Notes: a model not told the origin generated them from the letters alone. A stretch of 61,135 bases of DNA from Chloroflexota bacterium (GCA_012719135.1 JAAYAW010000074.1:1-61135), one strand, 5' to 3'. Positions 30,696 through 52,861 are shown, numbered from the stretch's first letter. A program made the numbers and translations.

Positions 30696-30712
30696 AGTTA
30701 GCTGTGCTAACT
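30696..30712. promoter_or_regulatory. Palindromic operator for MacAB-like operon
   Basis: A perfect inverted repeat of 7-base arms around 3 bases, AGTTAGC-N3-GCTAACT, overlaps the -10 box of the macA promoter. Its TTAGC-N3-GCTAA core resembles MarR/SlyA-type sites. Binding there would block transcription. No regulator gene is adjacent. Confidence 0.6.
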
Positions 30713-30737
30713 ATACGGAGCATCCGTGCCCTGTCAA
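30710..30737 (-). promoter_or_regulatory. Sigma70-type promoter for MacAB-like operon
   Basis: On the minus strand a perfect TTGACA (30732-30737) and TATAGT (30710-30715) are 16 bases apart. The -10 box overlaps the inverted repeat at 30696-30712. Confidence 0.7.
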
Positions 30738-38187: not shown

Positions 38188-38313
38188 AAAAAGGCGTCAG
38201 ATAGTAGATGGCACAGCGCCCGAACGCACCGATCCTGCAACCCGCTGGCCCTGGCTGCGTAGAGAGAGATGCGTGTTCTGAGCGCGTGTACGTCTCAATC
38301 GGAGAAAGACATC

Positions 38314-39708
38314 GTGACGAGCATCACAGCAGAGCCGCTAGCCCCTGGAACACTGCTCAAGGGACGCTACGAGGTGGTGCGCCTGATCAAAGGCGGCGGC
38401 ATGTCATGGATCTACCAGGTGAATGAGCGCCGCAAGGACGCCACGACGCAGCTCTGGGCACTGAAGGAGTTGCGCATCGATTCGGACGACAACCATACCG
38501 TCGCCGAGGCGGAGGAGCTTTTCGAGCAGGAAGCCCATATCCTGGTTCACCTCTCCCATCCCAATTTGCCAAGGGTGGCAGCCTACTTTGCTCAGAGCCA
38601 GCGCTCCTATCTGGTGATGGAATACGTCCACGGCGAAACGTTGCAGGAACGGCTCACCGCTGCCAGAGCGCCGCTTCTGGAAAGCCAGGTGGTCGCGTGG
38701 GCCGTGCAGATCTGTGGCGTGCTTTCCTATCTGCACAACCAGAGCCCGCCGGTCATTTTCCGTGATATGAAGCCCAGCAACGTGATGGTTACCCCCGGCG
38801 GCGACATCAAACTCATCGATTTTGGCATCGCCCGCACCTACAAGGCCGGCAAACAGCGCGATACGATCAGCATGGGCTCGGAAAACTATGCGGCGCCGGA
38901 ACAATGGGGCCAGGAACAGACAGACGCCCGCTCCGATGTGTACGCCGTAGGCGCGACGATGTATCATCTCCTTGCGAACGAGCCGCCACTTCCCGCCTTT
39001 GTTCCGGGCGAGCGCGTCCCCTTGAGGCAGCGGAATCCTTCGGCATCTGAACGGGTGGATGCGATCATCTCCAAGGCCATGGCCCGTGATCGAAACGACC
39101 GTTACCAGACGGCTGAAGAGATGCGGCAGGCCCTGCTGAGGCTGCTCTCGCCCTGGGAACGCTTGCGTCTTGTCGGCGCACCGGGCTCGGCGGGCGGCCG
39201 CAACGCCGCATCAGCGATGCCGGCGCGCTCAGGCCAGGCACCGGATGAAAGAGCGGGCGCCGGGCGAACCGAGCGGGAACAGCCGGCCCAGCATATGCCG
39301 GTCTATTGCGCCGTGTGTGGTGCCGGGAACCGCCAGGGTGCTCAGTTTTGCTCTCGTTGCGGACACCCCATGGCGACAGCGCCGATGGCACGCTTATCCG
39401 TCGTCCGGCCGGCCGAACACGCGGGGCGCCGAATCGACTTGCCCGCGGCCTCCCTCATCGTGGGCCGCCGCTCGCCTGACCGCATCACGGATATCGACCT
39501 GGGCGCCCTCGATCCAAACGGCTACGTCTCGCGGCAGCATGCCAGAATGGAACGATCTGCAGGTATCTGGACCGTGGTCGATCTGGACAGCTCCAATGGC
39601 ACGTCCGTGAACGGCAGCCGCGTACCTCCCGGCCTGCCCGTCCGGCTGCGGGATGGCGACGTTGTGCGGATGGGACAGGTGGAATTACGGTTTGAGGAAG
39701 AACACTAG
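38314..39708 (+). CDS. Ser/Thr protein kinase with zinc ribbon and FHA
   Basis: The 464-residue cytoplasmic protein has a Hanks-type kinase domain (residues about 18-285): a glycine-rich loop IKGGGMSWIYQV, ATP-binding Lys in WALKEL, catalytic FRDMKPSNVM (Phe in place of the His of HRD), LIDFGIAR and YAAPEQWG. It is predicted active. A Pro/Ala/Arg linker leads to a zinc ribbon (YCAVCGAGN and FCSRCGHPM) and a C-terminal FHA domain (LIVGRRSP; GYVSRQHARME; SSNGTSVNG), which binds phosphothreonine. There is no membrane segment. The GTG at 38314-38316 is picked because GGAG lies at good spacing; an ATG at 38269 would add 15 residues. It leads the signalling island. Confidence 0.88.
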   Translation: MTSITAEPLAPGTLLKGRYEVVRLIKGGGMSWIYQVNERRKDATTQLWALKELRIDSDDNHTVAEAEELFEQEAHILVHLSHPNLPRVAAYFAQSQRSYLVMEYVHGETLQERLTAARAPLLESQVVAWAVQICGVLSYLHNQSPPVIFRDMKPSNVMVTPGGDIKLIDFGIARTYKAGKQRDTISMGSENYAAPEQWGQEQTDARSDVYAVGATMYHLLANEPPLPAFVPGERVPLRQRNPSASERVDAIISKAMARDRNDRYQTAEEMRQALLRLLSPWERLRLVGAPGSAGGRNAASAMPARSGQAPDERAGAGRTEREQPAQHMPVYCAVCGAGNRQGAQFCSRCGHPMATAPMARLSVVRPAEHAGRRIDLPAASLIVGRRSPDRITDIDLGALDPNGYVSRQHARMERSAGIWTVVDLDSSNGTSVNGSRVPPGLPVRLRDGDVVRMGQVELRFEEEH

Positions 39709-39733
39709 CGGTGCTCTGATGGGAGATGTGCCA

Positions 39734-40999
39734 ATGCCCTGTGCAAACTGCGGTCGCGAAAATCGTCCGGGAGCCGGTTACTGCGCGTGGTGCGGTGCCG
39801 CCCTGGACACACCGCTGCCTTTTGAACCTGAGGACGCGGAGGGCGAACCGGATTGGCGCGCACAGGGCGCCGTGACGCGCAAACTCCACCCCGAAGAGCT
39901 CGGCCTGGGGCGCTCTTTGGGGGTGGGAGATACCCTGGAGGGCCGGTACGAGGTGATGGAGCTCGTAACCGAGACACCGGATAATCGTGTTTACCGGGCG
40001 TTCGATCGCCTCCGCTGCCCGGGCTGCGGGCGAGTGACAGAGAGCGATCCGGTTCCGCCCTATTGCGAAGCCTGCGGAGCCCGAATGGACCCACCTGCGC
40101 CGGTGACCATTCTGGAGTACCTGTACCAGCGGCCCGAGAACTACGACGGTCACTTTGAGCACGCAGGGCGCGACTACTATGTCGTGATCGAGAGCCCGAG
40201 TCAGGCCGATCAGATCGTCCACGGCCCGGGGAAACGGCTCGTTTTCGGCAGCGCGACCCACGCCGGGTACCAGTACGATCACAATGAGGACTCGCTGGAC
40301 GCGCGCTTGTACGCCGATCATCGTGGCACGATGCTCGGTTACTTTGTGGTCGCCGACGGCGTGGGCGGCCAGCAGTCGGGAGAGGTGGCCAGCCAGTGCG
40401 CCATCGCGGCGGCCTGGCGCTCGCTCTATGAAGGTCTCTGGCAGGTCGCCTTCCGCGGCCAGGAGATCGATGAGGAGGATGCGCGCGTCGCCGTGGCCGA
40501 CGCCATCGCGGCGGCGAACGAAGCGGTGTTTGCCGAGCGAGAGTCACGCCACAGCGATATGACCACGACGATCACCTTGGCGATAGTTCTCGGGCGCCGG
40601 GTCTACGTGGGAAACTTGGGCGACAGCCGGACCTATCTCTGGGATGCCCAGGGCCTGCATCGCATCACCAAGGATCATTCTCTGGTTCAGCGATTAGTTG
40701 ACACCGGTCAGATCACGCCGGAACAGGTCTACACCCATCCGCGGCGGAACATCATATACCAGTCAGTGGGCGATCGCCGCGAGACCGAGCCCGATCTCTA
40801 CACCGCCGAGATTGGGCCGGATGCCCGACTGGTGCTCTGCAGCGACGGGCTTTGGGAGATGGTTCGGGATGAGGGCATCGAGGAGGTGCTCCTGGCGGAG
40901 CCGGACGCGCAACGCGCTGCCGACCGCCTTACCCAGAATGCACTCGTCGCTGGGGGTGCGGACAACATCGCCGTCATCATCGTTCAGATCGAGCACTAG
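39734..40999 (+). CDS. PP2C phosphatase with zinc ribbons and kinase-lobe remnant
   Basis: The 421-residue protein removes phosphate from Ser/Thr. The PP2C domain (about residues 165-420) keeps DHNEDSL, VADGVGGQQSGE, TTTITLAIV, VGNLGDSRTYL, CSDGLWEMV and GADNIAVIIVQ. In front are a zinc ribbon (CANCG and CAWCG) and a second ribbon (CPGCG and CEACG). Between them GDTLEGRYEVMELVTETP and VYRAFDRL read like the first strands of a Hanks kinase N-lobe, cut before its catalytic parts. It should oppose the neighbouring kinases. The ATG at 39734 has GGGAG at good spacing. It follows kinase 1 by 25 bases. Confidence 0.9.
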   Translation: MPCANCGRENRPGAGYCAWCGAALDTPLPFEPEDAEGEPDWRAQGAVTRKLHPEELGLGRSLGVGDTLEGRYEVMELVTETPDNRVYRAFDRLRCPGCGRVTESDPVPPYCEACGARMDPPAPVTILEYLYQRPENYDGHFEHAGRDYYVVIESPSQADQIVHGPGKRLVFGSATHAGYQYDHNEDSLDARLYADHRGTMLGYFVVADGVGGQQSGEVASQCAIAAAWRSLYEGLWQVAFRGQEIDEEDARVAVADAIAAANEAVFAERESRHSDMTTTITLAIVLGRRVYVGNLGDSRTYLWDAQGLHRITKDHSLVQRLVDTGQITPEQVYTHPRRNIIYQSVGDRRETEPDLYTAEIGPDARLVLCSDGLWEMVRDEGIEEVLLAEPDAQRAADRLTQNALVAGGADNIAVIIVQIEH

Positions 41000-41038
41000 G
41001 CGGGCCGAGCGCGGCGCAGCCCACAACAGGAGGTGGCA

Positions 41039-42307
41039 ATGGCAGGGGAACTACAACTCAGAATCTCGGTGAACAAGCAGCAGGTGCCGGTCACTCGGAC
41101 ACAGCAGCTGATCTATGTCCTCGTGTCTGCTCAACCGAGCCAGGTGATCGCTCGCACGCGAATGGGGCTGAACTTTGGCTTTGTCCTGGATCGAAGCGGA
41201 TCGATGCGCGGCTCCAAGATCGAGCGGCTAAAGGAGGCGGTGAGCCTGGCCGTCTCTCGAATGAACCCTGAGGACCGGTTGTCCGTCACGGTGTTTAACG
41301 ACAGTGCTCAGGTTCTTGCGGCCAGTGGTACGCTTGGGGAGCAACGTACCCTGGCGTCACGGGTGCGAGACCTCAGGGCCGGCGGTGGCACACAGATGGC
41401 CAGAGGCCTCTCTCTGGGCCTCCGAGAGGTGTTCCGTCACTACGATGAACAGCGCTCCAACCAGGTGCTGCTCCTCACTGACGGACAGACTTATGGAGAC
41501 GAATCTCAGTGCCTGAAGCTGGCCAGAGAAGCGGGCGAACACCATATCGCTATTCAGGCCCTCGGCCTGGGCGATGACTGGAACGAGGACCTGTTGGATC
41601 AGGTTGGCCAGCTGAGCGGCGGAGACTCTGACCTCGTGGAATCCGCCGATGAGATCGTCCCGCTATTTGCCCAGACGGTGGAGCGCTCCCAGAAGGCCAT
41701 CGTTCGGAACGCCCGCCTGACCCTTCGGCTGGTGCCGGGAGTCGTGCCCAGGCAGGTGTGGCAGGTCACTCCCCTGCTCGCGAACCTCGGGTACATGCCG
41801 ATCGGCGAGCATGATGTCCAGATCGATCTCGGAGAGCTGGATGCGGATCAGGGGAAAGCGGTGCTCATCGAACTGCTGCTCCCGCCTCGCCAGGCCGGCA
41901 GCTATCGAATCGCGCAGGCCCAGGTGAGCTATGACTTGCCGCTGCACAACCAGCTGGGCCTGGAGTCGCGCGAAGACATCATCGTGGGGTTCACGGGTGA
42001 CGCCCAGCTGGCGCGCCAGTATGACCCGGCAGTGATGAACCTGGTAGAGAAAGTGACGGCGTACAAGCTCCAGACGCGCGCGCTGGACGAGGCCCGCATG
42101 GGCAACGTCGCCGGCGCCACGCAGAAACTCCGCGCGGCGGCGACGCGGCTGCTCGAGTTAGGCGAGACCGGTCTGGCGCAGGCCGCCTCCGAAGAAGCCG
42201 ACAACCTGGAAAAGTCGGGACAAATGACTTCGGCGGGCACGAAAAAGCTGCGTTACCAGACGCGCAAGTTGACGCAAAAGCTTCCCGACCTCCCCGACGA
42301 CCACTGA
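41039..42307 (+). CDS. VWA-domain protein
   Basis: The 422-residue protein carries a von Willebrand factor A domain (about residues 40-215) with an intact metal-ion site: DRSGSMRGSK, GGTQMARG and LLTDGQTYGD. A beta-rich region follows, then a helical C-terminal part rich in Ala/Leu/Glu (GNVAGATQKLRAAATRLLEL). It has no signal peptide or membrane segment, so it acts in the cytoplasm. VWA domains with MIDAS bind protein partners in a divalent-metal-dependent manner. A VWA-PP2C-kinase grouping recalls the TerY-P type triads. Ribosome binding site AGGAGGTGG; the gene follows PP2C by 39 bases. Confidence 0.9.
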   Translation: MAGELQLRISVNKQQVPVTRTQQLIYVLVSAQPSQVIARTRMGLNFGFVLDRSGSMRGSKIERLKEAVSLAVSRMNPEDRLSVTVFNDSAQVLAASGTLGEQRTLASRVRDLRAGGGTQMARGLSLGLREVFRHYDEQRSNQVLLLTDGQTYGDESQCLKLAREAGEHHIAIQALGLGDDWNEDLLDQVGQLSGGDSDLVESADEIVPLFAQTVERSQKAIVRNARLTLRLVPGVVPRQVWQVTPLLANLGYMPIGEHDVQIDLGELDADQGKAVLIELLLPPRQAGSYRIAQAQVSYDLPLHNQLGLESREDIIVGFTGDAQLARQYDPAVMNLVEKVTAYKLQTRALDEARMGNVAGATQKLRAAATRLLELGETGLAQAASEEADNLEKSGQMTSAGTKKLRYQTRKLTQKLPDLPDDH

Positions 42308-42326
42308 GTACCAAAGGAGTTCCACC

Positions 42327-43421
42327 ATGAAATGTCAGAGCTGTGGAAGTACCGTTCAGGATGATGCCGTATACTGCGATCAATGTGGCGCTCGGCTCGA
42401 GACTGCGCCAACAACAAGCCAGACCTCGGCCCAGTTGCCCGTCGCGCCTCCGCCAGCGGACGCTGGGGCAATGAACGCCAACCTGTGCCCGGCGTGCGGC
42501 ACTGAGAACTTGCCGGGGGAGATGTTCTGTTCCGATTGTGGTACGCCTCTCCAGGCGCCGCTGCCGGAACCGGGGCTCGGTGTGGATGCTGCAGCGGGCA
42601 TCACGCCAACCGCGGAGACTGTGACAGAGGCGGCATCGGCAGTCACTGCGGAAGCAGAGGACGCTGGCAGCATGCCCTCTCCTGAATCGGCGGAAAGCGT
42701 CGCTGCCGTTGAGACCGCTCCGGCAGCGGTAACACCGGACCTGGCATGCACAGCCTGCGGGGCCAAGCTGGAGGCGGGTGATCTCTTCTGCCATGCATGC
42801 GGCTCCCGGGTGCAGTCGCCAGCGGCAACAGCTCCCGTCGCGCCCGAGCCAGCGGTCACCGCTGAGCAGGCTGCACAGACGGTGGCCTCCATCGCGGGGG
42901 CATCCGTACCGGCTGCCCCCGTTCAGGCCGACGTCTGCCCTGCCTGCGGCGCCCACGTGACGCCGGGGGAGGTCTTTTGCCAGTTCTGCGGCGCGGCTCT
43001 GATCTCCCATCCGCCGCAACCAACAGCAAGCGCACCCATCATGGCCACCAGTCCGGCGCCGGCCGCGGGCGCCAGCGGGACAACATCGGCGCACAGCGGT
43101 CCCGTGCTGATTGTCGCCGAGACAGGCACGGAACTGCCGCTTGCTCAAGGGACGGAGGCTCTGGTGGGTCGTGAGGACCCCTACACCAACGTCTACCCGG
43201 ACGTCGACCTGACGCCCTTTGGCGCTGAGGACAAGGGTGTATCTCGCCGCCACTTTAAGCTTACGCTGGCGGAGGGGCAGTACGCCGTACAGGACCTGGC
43301 CAGCACCAACTACACCTGGCTGAACCAGCAGCGGCTGCAGCCGAATGTGCCAGTATCCCTTAAGGACGGCGATGAGATCCGAGCCGGGCGCCTGAAGCTG
43401 GTGTTCCGGTCCCGTCCATGA
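42327..43421 (+). CDS. Four-zinc-ribbon FHA adaptor protein
   Basis: The 364-residue protein has four zinc ribbons of the double CxxC type: CQSCG/CDQCG, CPACG/CSDCG, CTACG/CHACG and CPACG/CQFCG. They are spaced by Ala/Pro/Thr-rich linkers. A C-terminal FHA domain (ALVGREDP; GVSRRHFKL; ASTNYTWLNQ; LKDGDEIRAG) should bind phosphothreonine. It has no catalytic or membrane part and looks like a soluble phospho-dependent adaptor. Zinc ribbons may mediate protein contacts among the island products, each of which, except the VWA protein, also carries ribbons. The final four bases overlap the next kinase gene. Confidence 0.87.
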   Translation: MKCQSCGSTVQDDAVYCDQCGARLETAPTTSQTSAQLPVAPPPADAGAMNANLCPACGTENLPGEMFCSDCGTPLQAPLPEPGLGVDAAAGITPTAETVTEAASAVTAEAEDAGSMPSPESAESVAAVETAPAAVTPDLACTACGAKLEAGDLFCHACGSRVQSPAATAPVAPEPAVTAEQAAQTVASIAGASVPAAPVQADVCPACGAHVTPGEVFCQFCGAALISHPPQPTASAPIMATSPAPAAGASGTTSAHSGPVLIVAETGTELPLAQGTEALVGREDPYTNVYPDVDLTPFGAEDKGVSRRHFKLTLAEGQYAVQDLASTNYTWLNQQRLQPNVPVSLKDGDEIRAGRLKLVFRSRP

Positions 43422-45292
43422 CGAACCTGTGCCCTCAGTGTGGCCATCCGATCCGCAGCGCGTCGCGGTTCTGCCCGCGCTGCGGTCTGCTGCTGAAGGA
43501 GCAACTGGAGCCCGGCGCTCTTCTCGGCAACGGTCGCTATCGCATCGTGCGCTCCATCTCCAAGGGAGGCATGGGCGCGGTGTATCTCGCCGAAGACCGG
43601 GGCGCCTTTGACCGCCTGTGCATCGCGAAACAGATGCTCGAATACTACGACCCCGGCGATCCGGAGGACCGGCTCAAGGCTCAGCAGCGCTTTGAGGACG
43701 AGGGACGGACGCTGGCCGGCCTGAGCCATCCGGGGATTCCGCGCATCTACAGTTTCTTGCAGGAAGCCGGACGCTTTTACATCGTAATGGAGTATGTTCG
43801 CGGCGAGAATCTAGCCGCGTTTACCACCCGAGAAGGTGATCGCGGCCCGATTCCCCCAATCCGCCGAATGCCGCGCGAGGAGATGGTCCGCCACACCATC
43901 CAAGTATGCCGCATACTGGAGTATCTGCACAACCCGCAGCGCCCTGTGGTGCACCAGGACATCAAGCCCGCCAACATCATCCTGGAGCCAGAGTCCGACG
44001 TCCGGCTGGTTGACTTTGGCACGGCCCGTCGACGCGATCATTCACAGCAGGGTCAGCCTGGAACGGATGACCGTTCCAGCATCTACGGCACGGCCGGGTA
44101 CGCGCCTCCGGAGCAATACCGCGGACTCCCCGAGCCCAAGTCGGATGTGTTCGCCCTCGCGGCCACAGCGTATCACGTTCTCACCGATGACGATCCTCAG
44201 GATCATCCCTTCACATGGCCCCGGCTCGATACGCTACCCCGCGAGCTCGCTCTGGCCTTGCAGCGTGCCCTGCGTAACAAGCCGGAGGAGCGCAGCACAG
44301 CGCAGGAGTTGCGTCAGGCGCTTGAGCCGATCAGCACGCCGCAACGCACGCTGGAGGTCTTTACGTTCCCGGGCAACGCGCAGATACGCACCGTGGGCGC
44401 CCTGCCCTCGCTGGCCGACGAGCACTGGGACGCGTCGCGCGGCTTTCTGTACCAGGGCGACTTCCAGCGCTGGCTCAGAGACATCAACCGGCTCGATCTC
44501 GTGATCGCCGCCGACGACATCGTTGCCAGGGAAGAAAACCGGGACGCAGGGCTCGAGCGGTTCCTGCACACCGTGGACCCGGGGCTCCCCGATCCCAAGA
44601 TCGTCGCGGATCCGGCGGAGATCGATCTGGGTGGCGTGGCGCGCGTCTCAGCCTTGACGGTTCGCGCCTCGCTGACCAACACCAGTCGCGGCTATGTCCT
44701 CGGCCAGGTTCAGTCTTCAGAGCCGTGGCTCGAAGTGCACCCGCCGCAGATGCACCTCTGGGCCGGCATTCCCTCGTACATGCGGATTCATGTGCGCGCT
44801 GAGGACCTTCCCTTCCGCGCCGAACAGAGTGGGACGATATCTGTGGCAGATCTGGAAGGGCAGTCTCTCGTCTCCATTCACGTCAAGGCCCACGTGTCGC
44901 TGGTGCGGGAGATGGGGCGCATCCTCTGGCGCGCTCTATCAGCCGCAGGCCCCCTGAGTTGGCGTTATGTCAAGAGAACCTGGGGAGCGCACAGCACGGC
45001 CTTCGCACGCGTCTCGCGTCCGTTTCGAAAGCAGCCGTGGCTGATCTGGCTCCTCTGGCTCCTGGTGAGCGCGGCAACGGGCATCCTCCTTACCTTCGCC
45101 ACTGATTCCGCCCCTCTGCCCTGGTCTGGCATCAGTCCCGCAAGCCAGGAGTGGGTTCAGATCGTTATGGGGGCCATCCTGCTGCCACCCCTCCTCCTGC
45201 TGATCCTCTGGCCAGCGGTGGTGGTCGCAAGCGTGTGTATAGCAGGCGTCGCGGGGGCGCTGGTGGGCGCCTTTCGTTCCTTCGTGCGCTGA
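43418..45292 (+). CDS. Membrane-anchored zinc-ribbon Ser/Thr kinase with Ig-like domain
   Basis: The 624-residue protein begins with a zinc ribbon (C5, C8, C19, C22). A Hanks kinase domain follows at about 40-305: SKGGMGAVYLAE, Lys71, HQD at 179-181 (Gln in place of Arg), IKPANI, DFG at 199-201 and YAPPEQY. Residues 335-395 form a helical segment also seen by eye in no other protein of the window. Residues about 395-490 are Ig-like (ADPAEIDLGGV; SSEPWLEVHP), resembling the repeats of the pseudokinase at 47860. Two C-terminal membrane segments (LIWLLWLLVSAATGILLTF; MGAILLPPLLLLILWPAVVV) anchor it. The start overlaps the FHA adaptor by four bases (ATGA). Confidence 0.88.
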   Translation: MTNLCPQCGHPIRSASRFCPRCGLLLKEQLEPGALLGNGRYRIVRSISKGGMGAVYLAEDRGAFDRLCIAKQMLEYYDPGDPEDRLKAQQRFEDEGRTLAGLSHPGIPRIYSFLQEAGRFYIVMEYVRGENLAAFTTREGDRGPIPPIRRMPREEMVRHTIQVCRILEYLHNPQRPVVHQDIKPANIILEPESDVRLVDFGTARRRDHSQQGQPGTDDRSSIYGTAGYAPPEQYRGLPEPKSDVFALAATAYHVLTDDDPQDHPFTWPRLDTLPRELALALQRALRNKPEERSTAQELRQALEPISTPQRTLEVFTFPGNAQIRTVGALPSLADEHWDASRGFLYQGDFQRWLRDINRLDLVIAADDIVAREENRDAGLERFLHTVDPGLPDPKIVADPAEIDLGGVARVSALTVRASLTNTSRGYVLGQVQSSEPWLEVHPPQMHLWAGIPSYMRIHVRAEDLPFRAEQSGTISVADLEGQSLVSIHVKAHVSLVREMGRILWRALSAAGPLSWRYVKRTWGAHSTAFARVSRPFRKQPWLIWLLWLLVSAATGILLTFATDSAPLPWSGISPASQEWVQIVMGAILLPPLLLLILWPAVVVASVCIAGVAGALVGAFRSFVR

Positions 45293-47041: not shown

Positions 47042-47069
47042 TTGACAGGGTCCGATACTCCCCTATCAT
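47042..47069 (+). promoter_or_regulatory. Sigma70-type promoter for flavin-reductase gene
   Basis: TTGACA (47042-47047) and TATCAT (47064-47069) are 16 bases apart. The -35 box continues as TTGACAGGG. Confidence 0.65.
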
Positions 47070-47116: not shown

Positions 47117-47635
47117 ATGCGGCGCGTTCCCGTACCATATGACTACCATCTCGGCAGGACGCTGGCCACGCTTGCCGATCCAGGGCTGCTCCTTGCCGCT
47201 ACCGATCGCAGCGGGCGAAGCAACGCGATGACCATCGGCTGGGGCACCGTCGGCATCGTCTGGGGCAAGGCCGTCTTTGTCGTGCTGGTGCGCCCCTCAC
47301 GGTTCACGTACGGCCTGATCAACGATGCCGGCGAATTCACGGTGAACGTGCCGACAGCGGAGATGCGGCACTGGGTAGGCTTCTGCGGCACGCGCAGCGG
47401 CAGGGACACGGACAAGTTCGCCGCTCTTGGGATACGCACGAGTCCCGGCGTACTGACCGGAACGGTGACCATCGACGCCTGCCCCATGGTTTACGAATGC
47501 CGCTCGCTCCATCACAACGAACTGATTCCGGCGAATCTGGATCCGGCCTACGAAGCGCGTTTCTACGGTGGAGAGGATTATCACCGGCTCTACTACGGCG
47601 AGATTTTGGGCGCCTACGCCGCACCGGACTACTAG
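47117..47635 (+). CDS. Flavin reductase-like protein
   Basis: The 172-residue protein matches the flavin reductase-like FMN-binding split-barrel family: NAMTIGWGTVGIVW (FMN-binding loop), RPSRFTYGLI, GEFTVNVPT and GFCGTRSGRDTDKF. Such proteins reduce flavins with NAD(P)H or supply electrons to partner oxygenases. No partner is adjacent. It has its own promoter and a ribosome binding site (GGGGAGGC). It lies alone between serS and the pseudokinase. Confidence 0.85.
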   Translation: MRRVPVPYDYHLGRTLATLADPGLLLAATDRSGRSNAMTIGWGTVGIVWGKAVFVVLVRPSRFTYGLINDAGEFTVNVPTAEMRHWVGFCGTRSGRDTDKFAALGIRTSPGVLTGTVTIDACPMVYECRSLHHNELIPANLDPAYEARFYGGEDYHRLYYGEILGAYAAPDY

Positions 47636-47763: not shown

Positions 47764-47791
47764 TTGACAGGGCCAACCGCCGAGCTATAAT
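47764..47791 (+). promoter_or_regulatory. Sigma70-type promoter for pseudokinase gene
   Basis: TTGACA (47764-47769) and a perfect TATAAT (47786-47791) are 16 bases apart; the -35 box reads TTGACAGGGC. The start codon is about 70 bases downstream. Confidence 0.7.
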
Positions 47792-47859: not shown

Positions 47860-50800
47860 ATGACTGACTATCGCCGCTGCCCCAAGTGCAACCAACCTAA
47901 TGATCCCGCGACGCACGCGTGCGTTTCCTGCGGCGCTGAGCTCCTGCGCCGCTGCCCGAACTGCGGCGCACTGCGCGCTTGGAACGTGGCCAGTTGCCCG
48001 AACTGCCAGGTGAACGCCGATGATCAGGCGCTCTTTACCGGCTTGTTCCAGGCGCCGCGCACAGGGACGCTCAGGAACCGCTACGTTATCCTCGAAACGC
48101 TTGCCAGTGGGCCTGTGAGTACCGTGTACCGTGCCTCGGATACCCGTGACGCCCAACGCCTGTATGCGATCAAGGAACTCTCGACCGTTTCCCTGTTCCG
48201 CGCAGATGAAAAAAGGGAGGCCGAGCAGGCGATTTCCGGAGATATCGCGCGCTGGTCTCAGGCGAGCCACGAAGGCATCGTACCGATTCTGGATAGCTTC
48301 CAGGATCGCGACCGGTATTATGTCGTGACCGAGTACGTGTACGGCTGGAGTCTAGACCAGATCCTCAACGATCCCTCCGTCCGTATCTCTCCCGATCTGG
48401 TGCGCAACTGGGGTTCACAGGTGTGCGATTTTCTGGCGTTTCTGCACGGTCTCGCTGAACCCATGCATGTTCCCTTTCTCAGTCCGGCGCATCTGATCGC
48501 CACGCCGGAGGGCAGGGTCGTTCTCGTCGGACACGGCCTCAGTTACCGCGTCCGCCCCGTAGGGTTCGGACCCTATGGCGGCATCCCCGGCTATGCCGCG
48601 CCAGATCTCGCTCAGCAGAGCCCCGATCCGCGCACGGACATCTTTAGCCTTGGTCGCGTGCTCTACGCGCTTCTGCTTGATCGCCCCCTGGAAAAGGGGC
48701 TCCCCCGCGGTCTGAGCCTGCAGCAGGCGGTGCCGGGAATCTCCACGCAACTCGTGCGCATCATTGCGCGGGCCGCCACCAGCCGTCGTGATCAGCGCTA
48801 TGGTTCCGTCGCCGAACTGCGCCAGGCCCTCTTTGATCCTGAACGCGAGGCGGGCCTTGCGGTTTCCGGCTGGTATGCTGCCTCGCGCACAGGGGCCGCA
48901 TCGCCCGGCCGTGCCGGGCGGGCGTCCAAAACAGCCGAAGGCGGCACGATGGAGGATCTCGGCTTCGCCCGTGACCCGCGATACGGCCGCCAGGAGAGCC
49001 AGGCGACGCCCGCCAAAGCCGCCCCCACGCAGGCTGCGGCTGTTCGGATGTCCGTCTACCCTGCCCGGATCGAGATACGCGACCAGGCGCCTCACGACTT
49101 GCGGCGACTGGTGCTGACCGTGCGCAACGCAGGTCAGGGAGACCTGGAGTTCAGGGTAGTTAGCCAGGTCTCCTGGATCAAGGCGCCCGCGAGGCTGGTC
49201 ACCCTGGCCCCTGAGAAGCAGGCCCGCGTCGTCCTGACGCTGAATCCGGCTTCTCTGCCAGGTGACAAGGTCGCGGAGCCGCGCGCGATCCTGGTCGAAT
49301 CCAACGCAGGACGCCAGTGGGTCCCGGCCACGGTCGAGATCAAGACCGCTCCAATGCTGCGCCCCGAGCCTCGAATCCTGGACTTTGGGCAAGTGCCGTC
49401 GGACGAGGGTCGGACGCTTGCGCTGACCATTCATAACGATGGGCGGCAGCGACTGGCCGGCCAGATCGTCTCTCGTGTGCCGTGGCTGAAGGCCAGCCCT
49501 GCAGACTTCGCACTCGCCGCCAACGAGAGCCGGGCCGTATCGGTGAGTGTCCTCCCGGAGAGGCTGCCAGCAGGACCCCAGAACGTCGCAGAAGCGCTGA
49601 TGGTAGACTCCAACGGAGGGCAGGCTCGAATCGGCGCGGAGGCCTGGGCGCCTAATCCCAGGATGGAGCTTGCGAGCGGCGTACTGGACTGGGGAGACAC
49701 TCAGGAAGGGGCCGCGATTCCCCTGGACGTCTCTGTGGTCAACTCCGGCGACGGGCAACTGATCGGGCATGCCCGCAGCCTGGTCCCGTGGCTTCGAGTC
49801 CAGCCCGAGAGCTGGCAGGTCGAGGCGGGCCAACGGACAACCCTGCGCGTGCTGGCCGATACCGCTGGCCTGAGTGACGGTCCTCTGCATCTGCCCCAAG
49901 CAGTCCGACTGCAATCCAACGGCGGCACGGCCATACTTGCCGCCCGGCTGCACATCAGAGCGCCCCGCCTTGAACTGGATTCCTCAACGCTGGACTTTGG
50001 CCAGGTATCCCTGGGTGGCAGTGCCTCGCGAGAGTTGACCATACGCAACGCCGGTTCTGCCCCGATGGAGGCAGTGATCAACAGCGCAGTCGATTGGATC
50101 TCACCGGCAGAGAGCGTCATCCGATGTGAACCCGGCGAGGCGCGCCGAGTGACCGTCACGGCTGCAACGGGGTCGGTCCCTGCTGGCGGGCGAATCGAGA
50201 TCTCGGCAGCCCTGCGAGTCGCATCGGGTACGGATCTCTTGCCGGTAGATGTGGCCATCGTCGTGCTGCAGCCCATGCTGGAGGTTGAGCCCGGCATCGT
50301 CGACTTTGGCTACCTGGAGCCGACGGTCCCTGGAAGCGTGGAGCTTGCCCTCCACAACACGGGCACCGGCGACCTGGCATGGTATGCCCAGACCGACGCC
50401 GAGTGGCTCGAGATTCGGCCGCAATCGGGGCGCTGCGAGGAAGGAAGCGCATCGTCTATCACCCTCACCGCCTATGCACTGGGCATGGAAGCGAGCGCGG
50501 ATACAGCGACGGCCATCCTGGCCATCTCCAGCGATGCCGGGCGCCTCAAGATCCCACTGCGCGTGGCCAAGGCCGCGCCACGTCTGGAGCCGGATCGGAC
50601 GTTCGTGGATCTCGGCACCAGCCGGAACCGTGAGGATGTGTCCGCCAGCGTTCGCCTGTTCAACCGGGGCCTCGGCTTATTGCGTGGCACTGCGATTTCA
50701 GATAGACTGTGGTTGGTGACAGGCAGGACGTCGCTCGAGTGCGACACGGGCCATTCAGTGGAACTCCAACTTCACACCGACATGGCCGAGTTCGCTGACG

Positions 50801-51174
50801 ACCTCTCTGAGGATCGCGGCATTGTAACCGTAGAGACGAACGGAGGCACCGTCGAGATCGACGTTCGGGTTCAGGTCGTGCGGACACCCGCTCTTGAGGA
50901 ACCGGAGCCCGTTATGCTAAAGAGGGCTGAAGGATCCTCGGCCTGGCAGGGCCGGCTGATCCTGCGGAATCAGGGCCTGGCCACGGCGCGTGTCGACATC
51001 ACCAGCACCGATCGCCGTTTGGGCGTCTCCCGGGAGCGTGTGGAGGTCAAGCCTGGCAAGAGCGTGCGTATCGGGGTAACCTGGGACGATGAGGCGTTTC
51101 TTCCGGATCCGAACCCAGCGTTGATGGTAACCTGCGAGTCCGATGAGTGGCGAATCTCGGTGTTGCAGCAGTAG
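47860..51174 (+). CDS. Zinc-ribbon pseudokinase with Ig-like repeats
   Basis: The 1104-residue protein starts with two zinc ribbons (C7/C10-C21/C24; C32/C35-C46/C49). Residues 74-325 have the shape of a Hanks kinase: Lys105 in YAIKEL is kept, but the catalytic loop reads FLSPAHLI (206-213) with no HRD, and DFG is replaced by VGHG (223-226). It is therefore a predicted pseudokinase. After a linker (330-396) about seven Ig-like repeats of about 100 residues follow (starts near 397, 498, 601, 702, 807, 908, and a divergent one near 1011), each with a strand such as RILDFGQV and an SNGG turn. No signal peptide or membrane segment is seen. Its Ig-like part resembles that of the membrane kinase at 43418. 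Confidence 0.87.
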   Translation: MTDYRRCPKCNQPNDPATHACVSCGAELLRRCPNCGALRAWNVASCPNCQVNADDQALFTGLFQAPRTGTLRNRYVILETLASGPVSTVYRASDTRDAQRLYAIKELSTVSLFRADEKREAEQAISGDIARWSQASHEGIVPILDSFQDRDRYYVVTEYVYGWSLDQILNDPSVRISPDLVRNWGSQVCDFLAFLHGLAEPMHVPFLSPAHLIATPEGRVVLVGHGLSYRVRPVGFGPYGGIPGYAAPDLAQQSPDPRTDIFSLGRVLYALLLDRPLEKGLPRGLSLQQAVPGISTQLVRIIARAATSRRDQRYGSVAELRQALFDPEREAGLAVSGWYAASRTGAASPGRAGRASKTAEGGTMEDLGFARDPRYGRQESQATPAKAAPTQAAAVRMSVYPARIEIRDQAPHDLRRLVLTVRNAGQGDLEFRVVSQVSWIKAPARLVTLAPEKQARVVLTLNPASLPGDKVAEPRAILVESNAGRQWVPATVEIKTAPMLRPEPRILDFGQVPSDEGRTLALTIHNDGRQRLAGQIVSRVPWLKASPADFALAANESRAVSVSVLPERLPAGPQNVAEALMVDSNGGQARIGAEAWAPNPRMELASGVLDWGDTQEGAAIPLDVSVVNSGDGQLIGHARSLVPWLRVQPESWQVEAGQRTTLRVLADTAGLSDGPLHLPQAVRLQSNGGTAILAARLHIRAPRLELDSSTLDFGQVSLGGSASRELTIRNAGSAPMEAVINSAVDWISPAESVIRCEPGEARRVTVTAATGSVPAGGRIEISAALRVASGTDLLPVDVAIVVLQPMLEVEPGIVDFGYLEPTVPGSVELALHNTGTGDLAWYAQTDAEWLEIRPQSGRCEEGSASSITLTAYALGMEASADTATAILAISSDAGRLKIPLRVAKAAPRLEPDRTFVDLGTSRNREDVSASVRLFNRGLGLLRGTAISDRLWLVTGRTSLECDTGHSVELQLHTDMAEFADDLSEDRGIVTVETNGGTVEIDVRVQVVRTPALEEPEPVMLKRAEGSSAWQGRLILRNQGLATARVDITSTDRRLGVSRERVEVKPGKSVRIGVTWDDEAFLPDPNPALMVTCESDEWRISVLQQ

Positions 51175-51237: not shown

Positions 51238-51525
51238 ATGAAGCTGCTGATGGCCATTGTACGCGACGATTATGCCGCTGACGTGAACTATGCATTGACC
51301 AACGAGGGCTTCAGTTCCACCCGCGTGAGCACGACGGGTGGCTTTTGGCGTCGCGGCAACGTGACATTCCTCATCGGTGTTGAGGATGCCCAGGTCGAGC
51401 AGGCCTTGAGCATTATTGACGCGAACGCCGGACCCGAGATAGACACGCGCAACGCGCCGGAGGGGCATCCCCCGCACCGGGCTACCGTCTTTGTGATCAA
51501 CACCGAGACCTTTGAGCGATACTGA
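51238..51525 (+). CDS. DarA/PstA-type cyclic-di-AMP receptor
   Basis: The 95-residue protein matches the PII-like c-di-AMP receptor family (DarA/PstA): MKLLMAIVRDDYA, the TTGGFWRRGNVTFLIGVE motif with the TGGF and GN turns that contact the ligand, and the C-terminal ATVFVINTE. These trimers bind cyclic di-AMP in the cytoplasm and pass the signal on to unknown partners. It sits 63 bases after the pseudokinase with its own ribosome binding site (GAAGGAGC), possibly in the same transcript. No c-di-AMP synthase is in the window. Confidence 0.9.
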   Translation: MKLLMAIVRDDYAADVNYALTNEGFSSTRVSTTGGFWRRGNVTFLIGVEDAQVEQALSIIDANAGPEIDTRNAPEGHPPHRATVFVINTETFERY

Positions 51526-51553: not shown

Positions 51554-52861
51554 CTACCCGCGGGGCGCGAACGGGCTATGCCAGCGCCCCGCGTCATCAA
51601 AGGGGAGCGCCATCGCGGTAGAGACCACAGCCAGATCCGGATTGGCCAGAACCTCGGGCAATAGTGCCTCGGATACGAGCAGGTACTCGAGATGCAGTGT
51701 GTCCTGGATGGCGACGAGCCGTAGATCCCCCGGTGATGTGTGCCGCTCGCGGAAGCCTGCAGCCTCCAGCGCCTCGCGATCGGTGGCATAGGCAAAGGGG
51801 ATCTTGCCCCTCTCCATGTTCCCGGAAGCCAGCACATTGGCGCGAACCGCGGGCCAGTCGATCTCCCGGACGAGCGCCTCTGTGGTAAAATCGGCCAGCC
51901 CCACACCAAGGGCGTTCCCATGGCTCGCTGGTGTGACGCGCAGCACCACAAGAGAGTGGATCTCCGGTGCCTCCGGCCACTCCGGCTCTGCGATCACCCT
52001 CTTCCGCCCGATCACATAGCAATCCATCCCCGTTCCGCTGATGTCTTTCCCGAGTAGCTCCACAAGGCCGATGTCAATCCGGTGAAAGGGTATTTTGGCG
52101 CTGAGCGACTTGGCATACCGCAGCAGATCGGGCTCGGCTCGGACGATCTCCTCCGGCCTCAGGCCGGTGAGCGAGGCCAAGCCACCTCGCGCGTTCTCCA
52201 CCAGGGCCAGCCCGGCCAGCACCGGCGCACGCTCGAATACGCAGGCCGCCACCTCAGGAATCAAGCTCGCCAGTCCCTGGTTGCCGAAACGGTGCATGGT
52301 CACCGCCTGCCGATGCTTTCCCATGCCGATGACCGCCATCTTGCAGAGCCCACTCTCTCGCTCCGCGTCAAAGCTCGTGTGCTTTTTGATGCGGTTCACC
52401 ACGATGATCCCTTGGGCCCGCGCGGCTTGAGCATCCAGATACACGGGTACGCCCGTAGCCAGCCTGCCGATCTGAACCACAGACATGTCCGAGCGGATCG
52501 GAGCGCCGATGGTTTGCTCATCTATCCCGAGGTCCGCCAGCAGCGCCCGCTGACCATCGGCTGTGCCCCCGCCGTGGCTTCCCATGGCCGGAAAGACAAA
52601 CGGCTTTCCTCCGCGGTCGCGGACGGCGCGCACGACCGTTCGGAGCACCGCTGGAAGTGTCGCAATTCCACGGCTTCCAGCCGTGATGGCGATCTCGTCG
52701 CCGGAGGTGATCCTTTCCAGTGCCCCGGTGCGCTCCAAAGCGGCCATCGTAGCCGCCTCAACATCAGAGAGTTCCGGCTGCCGCCACAGCTGCTGCACCA
52801 TGACCACTCGAACCGCGGAGAGATCCACACGGGATTCGATTAACGGCTGATCCGCGCTCAT
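51554..52861 (-). CDS. LarA-like (DUF2088) protein
   Basis: The 435-residue protein matches the nickel-dependent lactate racemase-like DUF2088 family: AGSRGIATLPAVLRT, PAMGSHGGGTADGQ, NRIKKHTSFDAERESGL and IGMGKHRQAVTMHRFG. Its function is likely tied to a 2-hydroxyacid or related substrate, but without the LarBCE maturation genes nearby the nickel-pincer cofactor cannot be assumed. CAGGAGGCGTG precedes the ATG. It is divergent from the dehydrogenase next to it. Confidence 0.8.
   Translation of the reverse strand: MSADQPLIESRVDLSAVRVVMVQQLWRQPELSDVEAATMAALERTGALERITSGDEIAITAGSRGIATLPAVLRTVVRAVRDRGGKPFVFPAMGSHGGGTADGQRALLADLGIDEQTIGAPIRSDMSVVQIGRLATGVPVYLDAQAARAQGIIVVNRIKKHTSFDAERESGLCKMAVIGMGKHRQAVTMHRFGNQGLASLIPEVAACVFERAPVLAGLALVENARGGLASLTGLRPEEIVRAEPDLLRYAKSLSAKIPFHRIDIGLVELLGKDISGTGMDCYVIGRKRVIAEPEWPEAPEIHSLVVLRVTPASHGNALGVGLADFTTEALVREIDWPAVRANVLASGNMERGKIPFAYATDREALEAAGFRERHTSPGDLRLVAIQDTLHLEYLLVSEALLPEVLANPDLAVVSTAMALPFDDAGRWHSPFAPRG

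Follow-up and report, generated by a model that had tools for sequence, protein, structure and literature searches.

The window is a stretch of 61,135 nucleotides from a Chloroflexota bacterium. Positions 47860-51174, on the + strand like the other features described here unless stated otherwise, encode a protein of 1104 amino acids, which we call PSK (seven-repeat pseudokinase). It starts with a double zinc ribbon (47878-48006, residues 7-49), followed by a pseudokinase domain (48067-48864, residues 70-335), which is recognised both by Pfam and in a structure model, then by a disordered linker, and finally by seven Ig-like repeats of the HYDIN/ASH type (49048-51171), which run to the C-terminus. 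The next gene, cdaR (51238-51525), encodes a short PII-like homologue of c-di-AMP receptors.

The zinc ribbons consist of two CxxC...CxxC units, and match the Pfam DZR family with 28.2 bits, against a cut-off of 27.3. In a wide alignment (A1), each of the eight cysteines is at least 90% conserved. There is no transmembrane segment in PSK: the best 19-residue Kyte-Doolittle mean is 1.54, compared to 2.6 in the membrane kinase encoded at 43418. An earlier note on this DNA described two zinc ribbons and the lack of a membrane segment, and was right on both.

The kinase domain matches PF00069 over residues 75-277 (E 1.5e-17). When modelled alone with AlphaFold it has a mean pLDDT of 91 and a pTM of 0.89, and the model has a TM-score of 0.77-0.78 against S. 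aureus PknB/Stk1. The fold is that of an ordinary kinase, and the C-lobe keeps its structural residues, namely APE, the αF Asp260 and Arg313. The catalytic loop, PMHVPFLSPAHL (48460-48495, residues 201-212), is occupied by a motif of the family's own, with consensus PLxxPFLxPxH. In the window copy this includes HVPFLSPAHL, in which Phe206 is at the position of the HRD Asp, Ser208 at that of the Lys, and His211 at that of the Asn. The DFG motif lies within VGHG (48526-48537, residues 223-226) and reads GHG. The αC Glu is also missing (Asp128 in the window copy, varied elsewhere), which an earlier note on this DNA did not mention.

The earlier note had reported a retained ATP lysine, together with loss of both HRD (reading FLSPAHLI) and DFG. 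The lysine is indeed present in the window copy, as Lys105 of β3, and loss of the HRD Asp is common to the family: it is Phe in all 14 orthologues from the same family (f1), and Glu in the two relatives from family f8, so that Asp is absent from 16/16. The Asn at HRD+5 is gone in all 16, and in every seven-repeat kinase. Loss of DFG is correct for the window copy but not as a general rule, since Asp is replaced by Gly in nine of the 14 family members and kept in five. No alternative catalytic Asp is conserved in the orthologue alignments. Because the HRD Asp is missing from all 16 orthologues, sequencing error or local decay can be ruled out, and the sequences indicate that the loss of catalysis is ancestral rather than local. 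Compared with the window copy, the family orthologues have a median identity of 45% over the kinase domain, 30% over the linker and 33-50% over the repeats. The kinase domain is comparable to the repeats, and is therefore not decaying. Both the kinase fold and a family-conserved loss of residues are found, which places PSK among the bacterial Ser/Thr pseudokinases in the broad sense. As a protein kinase it is very probably dead. The proposal that it is a degenerate pseudokinase which probably acts without catalysis is well supported by the ancestral loss, by a kinase domain as conserved as the repeats, and by the confident fold.

A dead protein kinase may still have a different activity, such as AMPylation of the SelO type or glutamylation of the SidJ type, both of which have precedents (PMC12599244), or it may be a nucleotide-binding switch. 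Lys105 is found in 11 of the 13 family members with sequence at this position, and Glu106 in all that have sequence there. Together with the DFG Asp in five of 14 members, the retention of Lys105 implies that nucleotide binding may persist in some of them. However, Lys105 is missing from two family members and both f8 orthologues, so there is no conserved set of putative ATP or metal ligands, and the αC Glu, the HRD Asp, the Asn and the window-copy DFG Asp are all absent. We consider an altered activity or a nucleotide switch to be improbable.

A role in anti-phage defence was also considered and rejected. The PADLOC matches (PD-T4-6 and mad6) span the kinase domain only and two ordinary kinases were matched as well, which means that these matches just signify "kinase".

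Of the 15 family genomes that were searched (G000-G014), 14 contain a full-length or near full-length orthologue of PSK, the exception being G003. Such orthologues are also present in two f8 genomes (G056 and G021), and in G036 the gene is divided over two contigs. The public records that match them are Anaerolineae/Chloroflexi MAGs. When 396 genomes from the class were scanned, 26 gave matches with E-values of 1e-40 or lower, and no relative was found in viral contigs. The distant members, from families f3, f13, f24 and f26, have a kinase followed by seven repeats whenever they are full length, and most of them begin with a zinc ribbon. Exactly seven repeats are found in the full-length members from six families, including relatives that keep the HRD Asp. 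This residue is retained in f24, f26, G026 (f13) and G036 (f23); outside f1 and f8 it has been lost to Cys in G016 and to Ala in G061.

Residue changes were counted on a kinase tree from which the motif columns had been left out. A branch with support 100/99 separates all the seven-repeat kinases from canonical kinases, and f1, f8 and G036 form a clade with support 100/95. The minimum number of changes is four for the HRD Asp, four for the DFG Asp, and one for the HRD+5 Asn. In the simplest story, the Asn would have changed early, and the catalytic Asp would then have been lost repeatedly within a conserved architecture. The architecture of zinc ribbons, kinase and exactly seven repeats is constant despite these four or more changes of the HRD Asp, so members that keep and members that lose the Asp can be compared directly.

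The phospho-signalling islands of the class repeatedly contain zinc-ribbon kinases whose catalytic residues are intact (43418-45292 in the window, and loci L054, L068 and L071), some of them with one or two Ig domains. The seven-repeat family may have arisen from such kinases.

The repeats occupy 49048-49350, 49351-49656, 49657-49962 and 49963-50271 (repeats 1-4; residues 397-497, 498-599, 600-701 and 702-804), and 50272-50574, 50575-50886 and 50887-51171 (repeats 5-7; residues 805-905, 906-1009 and 1010-1104). Where about seven had been suggested, both a repeat HMM and the AlphaFold model give exactly seven, with pairwise identities of 14-29%. They match PF22544 (HYDIN/VesB/CFA65-like Ig) with an E-value of 4.2e-22 and 78.7 bits, against a cut-off of 25.5, and have the same fold; both the curated score and the fold thus identify them as HYDIN-type Ig domains. 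The Ig domain of the 43418 membrane kinase scores 28.4 bits against an HMM built from the seven PSK repeats alone, while none of 200 shuffled sequences was listed as a match, and the suggested relationship between the two is therefore borne out. Two cysteines, C859 in repeat 5 and C961 in repeat 6, are invariant in all 16 orthologues.

The structure of the full protein was predicted using AlphaFold2 with a 12-sequence alignment. The mean pLDDT is 83, rising to approximately 90 for the kinase and for the repeats from the second onward, which are β-sandwiches. With a pTM of 0.37, the model does not define how the domains are placed relative to one another. A Foldseek search with the full model ranks ciliary central-apparatus chains first, namely 7som_D (E 3.7e-46), 7sqc and 9ijj, followed by S. 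aureus and M. tuberculosis PknB, which match the kinase part. The repeats resemble the ASH domains of these HYDIN/CFAP proteins in being tandem β-sandwiches of the same fold class, but identities are only about 10-19%, and PSK differs from the ciliary proteins in being bacterial and fused to a pseudokinase. The low overall TM-scores against the ciliary chains are explained by a domain arrangement that is different or uncertain.

The likeness to an axonemal scaffold raises the question of whether PSK is simply a housekeeping structural protein, with repeats that organise the envelope or a filament and a kinase domain that is a spacer or dimerisation module. Its fixed number of repeats, its near-consensus promoter and its lack of a membrane segment would all fit. 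On the other hand, the kinase domain is at least as conserved as most of the repeats, and the invariant, family-specific PFLxPxH loop points to a specific role for this surface. A purely structural function thus appears rather unlikely.

The linker at residues 345-394 has pLDDT values below 50 and is predicted to be disordered. It contains a short conserved motif, TMEDLGFARDPRYG (48946-48987, residues 363-376), which has the form [S/T]MxxxG[FY]xxDxR[FY]G in 14/14 family members (one of them with Pro instead of the S/T), amid an otherwise variable sequence. M364, G368, D372, R374 and G376 are invariant in the 14 genomes. The motif is a good candidate for a docking site. It is absent from seven-repeat kinases outside the family, and the genomes that have it are the same set as those with an adjacent PII-like gene. 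Each of the two has a single origin, on the branch leading to one family, so their agreement counts as one evolutionary event.

The PII-like gene in question is cdaR, whose product of 95 amino acids lacks a B'-loop and matches PF06153 (CdAMP_rec) with 75.3 bits, against a cut-off of 27. It is the next gene after that for PSK, on the same strand, in 14/14 family genomes; this figure is made up of 13 loci with downstream sequence, plus G006, where the gene is on a second contig right behind the C-terminus of PSK. The gap between the two genes ranges from an overlap of a few bases (G008) to about 285 bases (G013), and is 63 bases in the window, where neither a promoter-like nor a terminator-like site was found. 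The f8 pseudokinase has no adjacent cdaR. G003, the sole family genome without PSK, also has no short cdaR, but this MAG is 83% complete, and so one missing contig would explain both absences. Every family genome has one diadenylate cyclase, and one full-length CdAMP_rec protein elsewhere, except for G007 (short form only) and G006 (two full-length proteins). The gene following cdaR (51554-52861, - strand), whose product we take to be LarA/DUF2088-like, is conserved in several family genomes, likewise on the opposite strand, and is absent in G008.

Upstream of PSK there is a perfect sigma-70 promoter, TTGACA-16-TATAAT (47764-47791, 12/12 matches), 68 bases before the start codon. For the window as a whole, the expected number of sites with no more than one mismatch is 0.04. 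A site matching at 11 or 12 of the 12 positions is present 34-180 bases upstream of PSK in all 13 testable orthologues, compared to a background of roughly one per 10 kb elsewhere. The window has two further near-perfect sigma-70 promoters, at 47042-47069 (+), which is 48 bases before a flavin-reductase-like ORF at 47117, and at 30710-30737 (-).

The other candidate partners of PSK are in a Ser/Thr phospho-signalling island (38269-45292, +) of five genes, encoding an FHA kinase, a PP2C, a VWA protein, a zinc-ribbon FHA protein, and a zinc-ribbon kinase that has a single Ig domain as well as membrane segments. The earlier note had proposed that PSK is a scaffold of this island and could recruit its active kinases; in one form of this idea, the island kinases would phosphorylate PSK and the FHA proteins would dock onto it. 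There are zinc ribbons and related Ig domains on both sides, and there is a precedent in MviN, a dead kinase that recruits an FHA protein (PMC12599244). At the level of lineages, PSK co-occurs with the island in its closest form (VWA identity of at least 60%) in f1 and f8, so a functional link may exist; the island-type VWA gene is present in 12 of the 15 family genomes and both f8 genomes. PSK and the island are on the same contig in G000, G001 and G010, in the last case about 7 kb apart and in opposite orientation. Against this, the island recurs elsewhere as its own conserved block, with PSK outside it, and some genomes have the two at a distance from each other or on different contigs, for example G009, where the island is on contig C10 and PSK is 93 kb into the 203-kb contig C3. 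G036 has PSK but no island VWA at E 1e-50, and G012, a fragmented MAG, has PSK but no further match to PSK and no island VWA gene. FHA domains require phospho-Thr, and the S/T position of the linker motif is Thr in just 4/14 members, Ser in 9/14 and Pro in 1/14, which weakens the suggestion of FHA docking through this residue. We conclude that the association of PSK with the island holds at the level of lineages but not as a fixed gene block, and that a scaffold for the island is an unlikely, though not far-fetched, explanation. Recruitment of the active kinases is not well supported, the stable neighbour of PSK being cdaR, which the earlier note did not mention.

The island VWA and zinc-ribbon FHA proteins (41033-43421) resemble in layout the archaeal ArnB-ArnA pair, in which a vWA domain is combined with a β-sandwich and helices in one protein, and a zinc finger with FHA in the other (PMC6509490). 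The VWA protein also matches PDB 8s05 ("Conserved protein") over nearly its full length, with an E-value of 6.6e-19.

The explanation that we prefer is that PSK is a non-catalytic scaffold or adaptor, expressed together with cdaR and possibly gated by this c-di-AMP-sensor-like protein; as a whole we give it a probability of roughly 0.5. PSK is probably a signalling scaffold rather than an enzyme, because a dead kinase and seven cilium-like domains are made beside a relative of a c-di-AMP sensor. It would be a cytosolic, non-phosphorylating protein, with the zinc ribbon and dead kinase at the end of a seven-domain chain, connected to it via the disordered linker. Docking would take place on the kinase fold and on the linker motif, the chain would be a spacer that sets a fixed reach, and the zinc ribbons would be an additional binding or dimerising element. 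PSK and cdaR are probably co-transcribed from the strong promoter of PSK. CdaR, a short PII-like relative of PstA/DarA, is the best candidate for a partner and a possible ligand gate. That PSK as such is a scaffold or adaptor seems reasonably likely. A direct partnership with CdaR, suggested by the gene order, is somewhat less than an even bet. Control of PSK by c-di-AMP is doubtful on present sequence evidence, and it is equally doubtful that a c-di-AMP-sensing PII-like protein would bind the linker motif or the dead active site and control what PSK assembles.

Bacterial pseudokinases and bacterial ASH-type domains are each already known. To our knowledge, most bacterial pseudokinases have no known function. 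A literature search with incomplete coverage found no description of the architecture of PSK, nor of any bacterial pseudokinase paired or working with c-di-AMP or a homologue of its receptor. PSK shows that a cytosolic signalling protein of bacteria can carry a long tandem array of HYDIN-type domains, and its constant PII-like neighbour is a concrete and testable partner, with a possible connection to c-di-AMP. A scaffold gated by a second messenger, if true, would connect signalling by nucleotides with a rod-like protein such as those used in cilia.

The closest functional comparison is with MviN (ActPs3), which also has a degraded active site in a bacterial kinase fold and is thought to work by recruitment, in a genome that encodes an active Ser/Thr kinase and FHA proteins. 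In M. tuberculosis, PknB phosphorylates MviN, and FhaA is recruited as a result (PMC12599244). MviN is a membrane protein with a deletion in the activation loop and VALT in place of VAIK, whereas PSK is soluble, keeps Lys105 and a near-normal activation segment, and has zinc ribbons and seven Ig repeats. The hallmark of ActPs3 is the activation-loop deletion, with a membrane segment in many members (PMC12599244), and sequence alignment and hydropathy find neither in PSK. EssB/YukC, from type VII secretion, similarly uses a kinase fold as a non-catalytic scaffold, but it resides in the membrane, its activation loop is shortened and it is part of a secretion system, none of which applies to PSK. 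DLHK pseudokinases retain the HRD Asp and have a degraded β3 Lys (PMC12599244), which is the opposite pattern to PSK. CP1 pseudokinases are linked to a COG3899 ATPase domain (PMC12599244), and Pfam found no such domain in PSK. In GLW pseudokinases, GLW replaces HRD (PMC12599244), while the PSK loop reads PFLxP. PASTA kinases (PknB/Stk1) have PASTA repeats, a membrane segment and an active kinase, and PSK has none of these; no PASTA domain was found in it, and the score against NF033483 is 66.7 bits, with a cut-off of 450.

CdaR has the same PII-like core as the PstA/DarA receptors, which have a large B'-loop and bind c-di-AMP as trimers. It differs from them in its length (95 residues, against approximately 109) and in the missing B'-loop, and scores 75 bits against the NCBIfam DarA model, for which the cut-off is 140. 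Its core reads TRVSTTGGFWRRGNVT, compared to the PstA/DarA motif TKLxxxGGFLxxGNTT, with several contacts kept and others changed. Using the contact positions reported for S. aureus PstA (PMC4316997), T28, F36, N41 and G47 are retained in the window protein, and N24, R26 and L37 are changed; in four orthologues Asn41 is replaced by Tyr. The missing B'-loop, the changes at positions 24, 26 and 37, and the Asn41Tyr replacement make binding of c-di-AMP uncertain, and from its sequence CdaR may bind c-di-AMP, another ligand, or none. Close tandem pairs of CdAMP_rec genes, many of them consisting of a short and a longer form, also occur in other Anaerolineae families (G022, G024, G041, G057, G058 and G059).
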